Below, piece by piece: positions 3,940 through 29,410 of a stretch of 40,439 nt of DNA. The notes under the pieces are model-generated. The model worked only from the letters and a program-made list of their open reading frames with translations. It ran no database searches and was not told the origin of the DNA. The translations under genes and the position numbers were made by a program. The DNA is from Candidatus Pacearchaeota archaeon (GTDB taxonomy: Archaea > Nanobdellota > Nanobdellia > Pacearchaeales > GW2011-AR1). The stretch spans positions 1-40,439 of the forward strand of contig JAFCEO010000011.1 of the NCBI GenBank assembly GCA_017609085.1, written 5' to 3'. Numbering within the stretch: the first letter of the stretch is position 1; every line of letters begins with the position of its first letter.

Positions 3940-4038
3940 TGCGGAGAGAAGGATTCGAACCTTCGCAGGCACTAAGCCGCATGGGTTCTAAATTTTGATT
4001 CCTTAACCATGCCCGTTTGTCCACTCCGGCATCTCCGC
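3940..4038 (-). tRNA. tRNA-Leu (UAA), intron-containing
   Basis: Acceptor stem GCGGAGA/TCTCCGC, T-arm GAAGG-TTCGAAT-CCTTC and a long variable arm (GGC-TTAGT-GCC) make a type II tRNA. The anticodon stem reads GCATG/CATGC with loop GTTAAG, giving anticodon TAA. An insert of about 17 bases (starting GAATCAAAATTTAG) follows position 37, the canonical archaeal intron site. Discriminator A; no encoded CCA. Shifting the stem by one base would give anticodon AAG, which archaea do not normally use, so UAA is preferred. It sits on the same strand inside the ribosomal protein block. Confidence 0.88.
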
Positions 4039-28583: not shown

Positions 28584-28601
28584 TACCGAAAATCTTATAT
28601 A
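28584..28601 (+). promoter_or_regulatory. BRE/TATA promoter of a candidate ncRNA
   Basis: ACCGAAAATCTTATATA: a CCGAAA-type BRE followed by a TATA box at about 28594-28601. The expected start, 24-27 bases after the TATA centre, falls at 28622-28625. That is exactly where the paired structure of the downstream RNA begins. No ORF starts there. Confidence 0.65.
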
Positions 28602-28622
28602 CCCTTTTCTCTTGGTTTCTAA

Positions 28623-28691
28623 AAGACAGGAGGAATCAGTGTTTACAGTTTGACACTTCGGTGTCTGCTGTTCGCTGACTTGTTCTGTCTT
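28623..28691 (+). ncRNA. Candidate structured small RNA, family unknown
   Basis: A single long imperfect hairpin. P1 is AAGACAG (28623-28629) with CTGTCTT (28685-28691). A symmetric 6x6 internal loop follows (GAGGAA / CTTGTT). P2 is TCAGTG with CGCTGA (28636-28641 / 28673-28678), P3 ACAG with CTGT, and P4 GACAC-TTCG-GTGTC with a stable UUCG tetraloop. The AT-poor content stands out from its surroundings, and a BRE/TATA box is correctly placed. The 6x6 loop looks like an H/ACA guide pocket, but no ANA box follows P1 and no kink-turn is evident. Independent tRNA-Leu promoter sequence follows. Confidence 0.6.
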
Positions 28692-28753
28692 ATTTCTATT
28701 AAGATTATTTAGATTAACAAGATTTTTATACTCTTTTTCTTATCCTAAACTAA

Positions 28754-28862
28754 GCAGGGGTAGCGAAGTGGTCAAACGCGCGGGACTCAAGAGCTAAATT
28801 GTACAAAATCTTAGAAATCCCGTCTCTTAGTGAGTTCCCAGGTTCGAATCCTGGCCCCTGCA
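28754..28862 (+). tRNA. tRNA-Leu (CAA), intron-containing
   Basis: Acceptor GCAGGGG/CCCCTGC, discriminator A, no CCA. T-arm CCAGG-TTCGAAT-CCTGG and a long variable arm (GTCTCTTAGTGAGTT region) make it type II. The anticodon stem CGGGA/TCCCG encloses CTCAAG, giving anticodon CAA, followed by an insert of about 25 bases after position 37, the canonical intron site. A TATA-like TTTTTATACT lies about 30 bases upstream. Confidence 0.92.
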
Positions 28863-28885: not shown

Positions 28886-29410
28886 ATGATGAAAAGAAAA
28901 AAAACAGAACAAACATTTCAGAAGATAAAAAGAAAAGCGAGAAGAACTCTTAACAGAAAATTTGAAAAAGAAAAAAGAACTTATGTAGTAGACACTTCTG
29001 CCATTATAAACAAATTTTTACCTAAATTATTTGATAAAGGTTTGAAGGGAAAAATTATTATTCCTAATGCCGTTATGGCAGAACTAGAAAATCTCGCAAA
29101 CAAAGGTAATGAAGCAGGTTTCGTAGGGCTGGAAGAAGTGGCTTCTTTACATCAATTAAAGAAAAAATATTCTTTTTCCCTTACTTTTACAGGCGCAAGA
29201 CCCGAAGAGAAGCATATTAAATATGCCAAATCAGGAGAGATAGATGCTTTAATTCGTGAAATTGCAGAGAAAAATAAAGCCATTCTAATAACAGCTGATT
29301 TGGTACAAGCAAAATCTGCTCAAGCTTATGGTTTAAATGTTTTGTTTTTAAAACCAAGATTTATCAAAAAGAAAAAAAGTTTTTTCTCATTTTTGAAAAG
29401 AAGAAAATAA
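28886..29410 (+). CDS. PIN domain protein
   Basis: 174 residues: a basic N-terminal extension (about 1-30), then a PIN nuclease domain with YVVDTSAIINK (first Asp), PNAVMAELENLA (Glu), KSGEIDALIREIAEKN (acidic pair) and AILITADLVQAKSAQAYG (late Asp), and a very basic tail (KKKKSFFSFLKRRK). It resembles the PIN part of the archaeal PIN-ATPase-KH proteins (COG1855), but the ATPase and KH parts are absent. It may process or bind RNA. Confidence 0.85.
   Translation: MMKRKKTEQTFQKIKRKARRTLNRKFEKEKRTYVVDTSAIINKFLPKLFDKGLKGKIIIPNAVMAELENLANKGNEAGFVGLEEVASLHQLKKKYSFSLTFTGARPEEKHIKYAKSGEIDALIREIAEKNKAILITADLVQAKSAQAYGLNVLFLKPRFIKKKKSFFSFLKRRK

Follow-up and report, generated by a model that had tools for sequence, protein, structure and literature searches.

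A hairpin RNA gene with a conserved internal loop in one order of Pacearchaeota

In a window of 40,439 nucleotides from a Candidatus Pacearchaeota archaeon (the whole stretch of DNA analysed here, contig JAFCEO010000011.1), a hairpin without annotation stands downstream of a BRE-like element and a TATA box. The locus raises the question of whether it is a gene for a structured RNA and, if so, whether this RNA is a derived H/ACA guide or represents a new family, both of which the original prediction had considered. To our knowledge, few non-coding RNAs are known in DPANN archaea besides rRNA, tRNA, SRP RNA, RNase P RNA and guide RNAs. The DPANN genomes analysed here have sizes of 0.4–1.6 Mb, with little dispensable content; that of the host archaeon has 0.58 Mb.

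The hairpin and its homologues

The hairpin consists of helix P1, a symmetric 6x6 internal loop and helices P2, P3 and P4, the last of which is capped by a UUCG tetraloop (Table 1). The minimum free energy of positions 28623–28691 was −34.6 kcal/mol vs. −15.5 ± 2.9 kcal/mol in dinucleotide shuffles, and it was reached by 0 of 200 of these. The G+C content of the hairpin is 0.45 vs. 0.30 for the window, where 2.6% of the 69-mers are equally GC-rich, and no ORF of at least 40 amino acids in the ORF list of the window overlaps it. Sequence and fold thus confirmed the 69-base hairpin of four helices that had been proposed, as well as its higher G+C content and its lack of an ORF.

Homologues were collected in several ways. 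A DNA search in relatives gave five further matches, one of which (L006 in genome G001) was spurious on reading. Models made from the growing alignment yielded homologues in the family, the order, a class sample and among 40 apparent negatives that were rechecked, and one homologue was added by reading the 5S rRNA loci of genomes without a model match. The accepted family comprises 25 hairpins in 23 genomes, all belonging to one archaeal order (Pacearchaeota); the model matches L084 (G043) and L105 (G081), together with the mentioned L006, were left out of the 23 as unconvincing. Within the order the distribution is patchy, as 20 of 200 genomes scored with the model, and among the 5S loci of 29 further genomes that were read, 28 were without a convincing copy. 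The family is therefore not universal even inside its order, as seen with a search of limited sensitivity. Outside this order no genome scored in the class-wide (378) and phylum-wide (371) samples, in which 11 candidates per genome were scored.

Conservation in the RNA is restricted to helices P1 and P2 and the internal loop between them (GARYAA / CUU(C)GKA). The loop of the main type is GAGUAA / CUUGUA, where the U of GAGUAA is alternatively G or C, and that of a second set, named group 3, is GARYAA-like / CUUCGGA (G007, G014, G142, G152 and G157, with G013 being intermediate). In family f4 the loop is shorter, GGAUA / CCUUU, and P2 has one pair more. The length of P2 varies between 5 and 8 bp, and the apex is also variable: it has one hairpin in the host genome, G069 and group 3, two in G113 and G005, and more in G020, G024 and G029, so that model matches measure from 62 to 114 nt. 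The P3/P4 form is retained in f4, f5 and some f1 relatives, and elsewhere it has been lost or has given way to different hairpins of the UUCG type. Apical hairpin loops are mostly UUCG tetraloops, and the sole conserved unpaired bases sit within a closed helix. The RNA has one copy in the host genome, and tandem pairs of hairpins are present in two genomes, G014 and G105. Both loops of the G105 tandem are GAACAA/CUUCGGA and the sequences of P1 and P2 differ between its hairpins. Since G105 has a 5S locus of the main type yet a loop of group 3, both sets are considered one family.

Double compensatory changes were found in 9 of the 12 core pairs, with 35 double-change cells in 20 aligned homologues, counts that are somewhat inflated because the structure had guided the alignment; the stems are also visible by eye in the unaligned sequences. 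In G005, for instance, A-U has changed to C-G in P1 and to G-C in P2. Paired cells reached 96.6% in the 20 aligned homologues vs. 27–48% in slid controls, and all five covariation measures were above every shuffle (0/500). Compensatory changes in relatives, whose absence would have counted against the original prediction, are thus present; the claim of a structured small RNA lacking annotation has gained comparative evidence, and we regard the existence of an RNA gene under selection as practically certain; almost certainly, the RNA has a cellular job. Selection preserves the sequence of the loop, but in P1 and P2 it acts for pairing rather than sequence, and the apex is free. As judged from these sequence comparisons, the locus appears as an independent, single-copy, non-coding RNA gene that is confined to one Pacearchaeota order as far as searched.

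Table 1. Features of the small RNA locus and tandem copies in two relatives (coordinates are those of the window unless a contig is named)
Feature	Coordinates	Strand	Evidence or remark
BRE-like element CCGAAAAT	28586..28593	+	Sequence; CCGAAA/CCAAAA/CCTAAA-type element 5' of several relatives
TATA box CTTATATA	28594..28601	+	Predicts start at about 28621–28624
Small RNA, 69-nt hairpin	28623..28691	+	Fold z = −6.6; covariance-model matches in 23 genomes
P1 5' strand, AAGACAG	28623..28629	+	Double compensatory changes in 5/6 modelled P1 pairs
Internal loop 5' strand, GAGGAA (family: GARYAA)	28630..28635	+	Kept in the main type and in group 3; no difference between the two G105 tandem copies
P2 5' strand, UCAGUG	28636..28641	+	Double compensatory changes in 4/6 modelled P2 pairs
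Apical part, P3 ACAG/CUGU and P4 GACAC-UUCG-GUGUC	28645..28671	+	Fold
P2 3' strand, CGCUGA	28673..28678	+	Covariation as for P2 5' strand
Internal loop 3' strand, CUUGUU (family: CUU(C)GKA)	28679..28684	+	Conserved
P1 3' strand, CUGUCUU	28685..28691	+	Covariation as for P1 5' strand
T-rich tail TTATTT, probable archaeal terminator	28690..28695	+	T-rich stretch directly 3' of P1 in most homologues
tRNA-Leu (CAA), intron in anticodon loop; neighbour, not part of the RNA	28754..28862	+	Rfam tRNA, 50.5 bits
Tandem RNA copies, G105	L149 6375–6492, same as L122 1340–1457		Loops identical, stems diverged
Tandem RNA copies, G014	L143 1954–2103		Loops identical or nearly so

Promoter, terminator and strand

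A TATA-like box was present from −34 to −28 relative to P1 in all 17 main-type homologues (f4 and G105 counted), vs. 1.8 expected and a maximum of 5 in 300 shuffles, and a loose BRE-like match was found in 12 of the 17. In group 3 the TATA-like box is mostly located at about −36 to −40 from P1. The presence of this box at a matching distance in the 17 main-type relatives supports the view that the 28586–28601 region is a real promoter, and with it the earlier proposal that the RNA has a BRE/TATA promoter of its own. By its position, the predicted promoter would make transcription begin with the first bases of P1, and the end would be the T-rich stretch right after this helix; the full-length transcript probably spans about 28621–28695. 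An additional terminator-like hairpin followed by T6 was observed in G107.

Concerning the strand, the model gave 81 bits on the + strand of the host genome and 18 bits on the − strand. In the 25 hand-parsed cores, 270 of 273 cells were paired when read on the + strand and 243 of 273 when read on the other. Since G-U pairs make the + strand pair better, the RNA is assigned to it, and the opposite strand was rejected.

Genomic setting

In the host genome the RNA is flanked by a co-directional DUF362 gene on one side and the tRNA-Leu gene on the other. Many relatives likewise have a tRNA-Leu downstream, encoded on the strand of the RNA and usually 40–100 nt from it, and beyond it there are tRNA-Arg and tRNA-Gly. 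The 5S rRNA is at most about 1.3 kb away in at least 11 main-type loci, and a gene encoding an Rpr2-like RNase P protein is near the RNA, on the other strand, in many loci. The main-type setting is thus a stable-RNA cluster. In the six genomes of group 3 the RNA is found between a divergent dph2-like gene and, in most of them, aIF5B. The two alternative settings and the varied downstream genes argue for an RNA acting in trans.

Several further observations were made in these regions. The window holds a second tRNA gene at 3940–4038 (−), which by its length possibly has an intron; both this gene and that at 28754–28862 (+) were missed by ARAGORN in bacterial mode and found by Rfam. A short stand-alone PIN-domain protein (window 28886–29410, +) adjoins the RNA and tRNA-Leu, and relatives of this protein are encoded close to the RNA in six other genomes. 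In G012 a LAGLIDADG homing-endonuclease-like ORF (L056:9173–9925, −) is located between the RNA and tRNA-Leu, and LAGLIDADG-like ORFs are also near the RNA in G024, G068 and G069. Finally, the dph2-like neighbour of the group-3 RNA is a stand-alone gene of 96–100 amino acids, kept in six genomes (L143:1570–1866 (−), L146:6444–6734 (+) and four further). In L143 and L146 it matches only the first 60 of the 302 positions of the Diphthamide_syn domain, and beyond its stop the rest of the domain could not be read in these two genomes. The gene possibly represents a split or shrunken Dph2.

Known RNA classes and candidate roles

No match at the RNA in the window was obtained with the 4227 models of Rfam release 15 at gathering threshold, and in the 19 homologous loci screened at E ≤ 5 the RNA was without a match as well. 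The known classes were also considered one by one. Y RNAs, including the bacterial YrlA, are small stem RNAs with a U-rich end, a protein-binding interruption in the basal stem and a variable apex. In outline the small RNA is like them, with its U-rich end, conserved basal-stem interruption and variable apex. However, no TROVE/Ro protein was detected in any of the 23 carriers (the control was positive in Deinobacterium), and no Y RNA match was obtained at the small RNA, so this class was rejected. The SRP and RNase P RNAs are likewise structured RNA genes of the same genomes, and the small RNA is often near the Rpr2-like gene, but both are separate genes in most carriers and were rejected as well. 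Among the 19 carriers tested, archaeal SRP RNA (RF01857, about 260–270 nt) was found in 12 and archaeal RNase P RNA (RF00373) in 15, including the host genome (C11:17166–17571), and the remaining carriers in each count are incomplete assemblies; in the host genome, 88% complete, no convincing SRP RNA was seen. C/D box sRNAs, defined by boxes C (RUGAUGA) and D (CUGA) joined by a short terminal stem, were discarded by direct reading, as there is no UGAUGA in the window's RNA nor a conserved C box in the alignment. A mobile repeat or viral element was also rejected, the RNA being single copy in the host genome and absent from viral contigs with two strict patterns. The resemblance of a G105 loop strand to the neighbouring 5S rRNA (UUAAGCUUCGGAUGUU / UUAAGCUUCCGAUGUU) was seen in one genome only and taken as chance.

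For each known class that was tested, at least one defining feature did not hold, and the RNA family is therefore rated as new, the option left by the original prediction that compensatory changes and the Rfam result uphold; its mechanism may yet prove to be that of a known class. We found no description of a Pacearchaeota RNA of this kind in the literature, in a search covering few subscription journals and preprints. An RNA gene with compensatory changes and with a conserved promoter and internal loop suggests a function so far undescribed in the lineage.

The best explanation, which we hold tentatively and at slightly less than even confidence, is a trans-acting RNA that would serve a small ribonucleoprotein as scaffold or cofactor. 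The P1–internal loop–P2 module would be a putative protein-binding site, in which two helices would present a structured, non-Watson-Crick loop, and the UUCG-capped apical hairpins would be stabilising decoration or secondary platforms. Recognition by a protein is favoured over seed pairing because the conserved unpaired bases are enclosed in a helix and the apical loops are mostly UUCG; the retention of the loop when the hairpin is duplicated also points to a protein reading it. Confidence in this mechanism is restrained by the patchy distribution and by the putative nature of the partner protein. From the neighbouring 5S rRNA, tRNAs, Rpr2-like RNase P protein, Dph2 and aIF5B we weakly infer a job in stable-RNA metabolism or translation, although these neighbours may just be a stable-RNA gene cluster. 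It is conceivable, but rather unlikely, that the RNA forms the core of a lineage-specific ribonucleoprotein not known from other organisms, with a dedicated putative protein that would read the GARYAA/CUU(C)GKA loop and act in translation or stable-RNA maturation in this lineage of very small, probably symbiotic archaea. A core housekeeping ribonucleoprotein fits poorly because the family, as seen with the limited sensitivity of the search, is not universal in its order. The alignment and covariance model give the scaffold proposal a testable object, namely a predicted RNA of about 70 nt whose defined loop would be expected to bind protein.

A trans-acting antisense regulator, pairing with mRNAs through the opened internal loop or the RNA ends, is improbable. 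The stand-alone promoter and U-rich 3' end are as in many regulatory sRNAs, but there is no accessible conserved seed, given that the apical loops are mostly UUCG, the 5' end is taken up by P1 and the conserved loop lies within a helix; in addition, the stem sequences change freely.

The next alternative, which we consider quite improbable, is a derived H/ACA pseudouridylation guide in which the 6x6 loop would be the pocket and Cbf5, Nop10 and L7Ae would be recruited without ANA box and kink-turn. The form of the RNA is similar to that of an archaeal H/ACA RNA, with lower stem, internal loop with strands of 5–7 nt and upper stem, and the tandem hairpins of two genomes recall multi-hairpin H/ACA RNAs. 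In archaeal H/ACA RNAs a distance of 14–16 nt separates the ANA box from the pair that closes the upper stem, and a GA stem of 8–11 bp leads to a K-turn or K-loop (PMC4652768). In contrast, an ANA at 14–16 nt from the P2 closing pair was found in just 2 of 23 homologues, P2 is too short, and no conserved GA/AG pairs with a 3-nt bulge were seen when the alignment was read by eye, so that the absence of ANA box and kink-turn noticed at the outset holds for the family. A bulge-helix-bulge splicing motif or a kink-turn in the loop, sought by hand, fits some genomes only and was rejected as not conserved; the loop of G007 has a kink-turn-like half.

The rRNA target was also sought. The loop is conserved in sequence, yet a bipartite scan of its strands against the 16S and 23S rRNAs of the genomes themselves gave, in the main group, no conserved site beating permuted loops, which were equal or better in 0.99 (LSU) and 0.28 (SSU) of cases. 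The suggested complementarity of GAGGAA/CTTGTT to rRNA was not borne out for the main group. The lowest value of the six group tests, 0.04 (SSU, group 3, two genomes), is regarded as chance given their number. A guide to a conserved rRNA site does not fit, moreover, because position 4 of the loop 5' strand is U, G or C. Nanoarchaeum equitans, a small symbiotic archaeon, has an H/ACA RNA of the ordinary type, in which K-turns and ACA are present (PMC3491384). Genes for Cbf5, Nop10 and L7Ae were found in the host genome, the last two with approximate query sequences, and a crude search of this 88% complete genome found neither Gar1 nor fibrillarin. Because the three proteins are present, a very derived guide is rated only as unlikely; the H/ACA idea of the original prediction is nevertheless not supported.

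A ribosome-associated or split-out piece of rRNA, as suggested by the proximity of 5S rRNA and tRNA genes, is very unlikely: in carriers the 23S matches span the full model (1–2987) with no domain obviously missing, model R3 has no significant match in rRNA, and six genomes carry the RNA between dph2 and aIF5B instead. Equally doubtful is a cis element, either a 5' leader or attenuator of tRNA-Leu or aIF5B or a 3'-UTR hairpin or terminator of the upstream gene. The order of genes in the host genome would allow it, but a TATA box stands between the upstream gene and the hairpin and a T-rich stretch comes directly after P1. Since the genes upstream are often divergent (Rpr2-like, dph2) and those downstream differ in identity and distance, the RNA does not fit a 3' UTR or a leader.

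As a separate observation on the rRNA genes, the 23S matches in L156 (G012), L159 (G069), L161 (G014) and L158 (G152) measure 3.2–3.55 kb vs. about 2.8 kb, which suggests that the 23S genes of several relatives contain introns.
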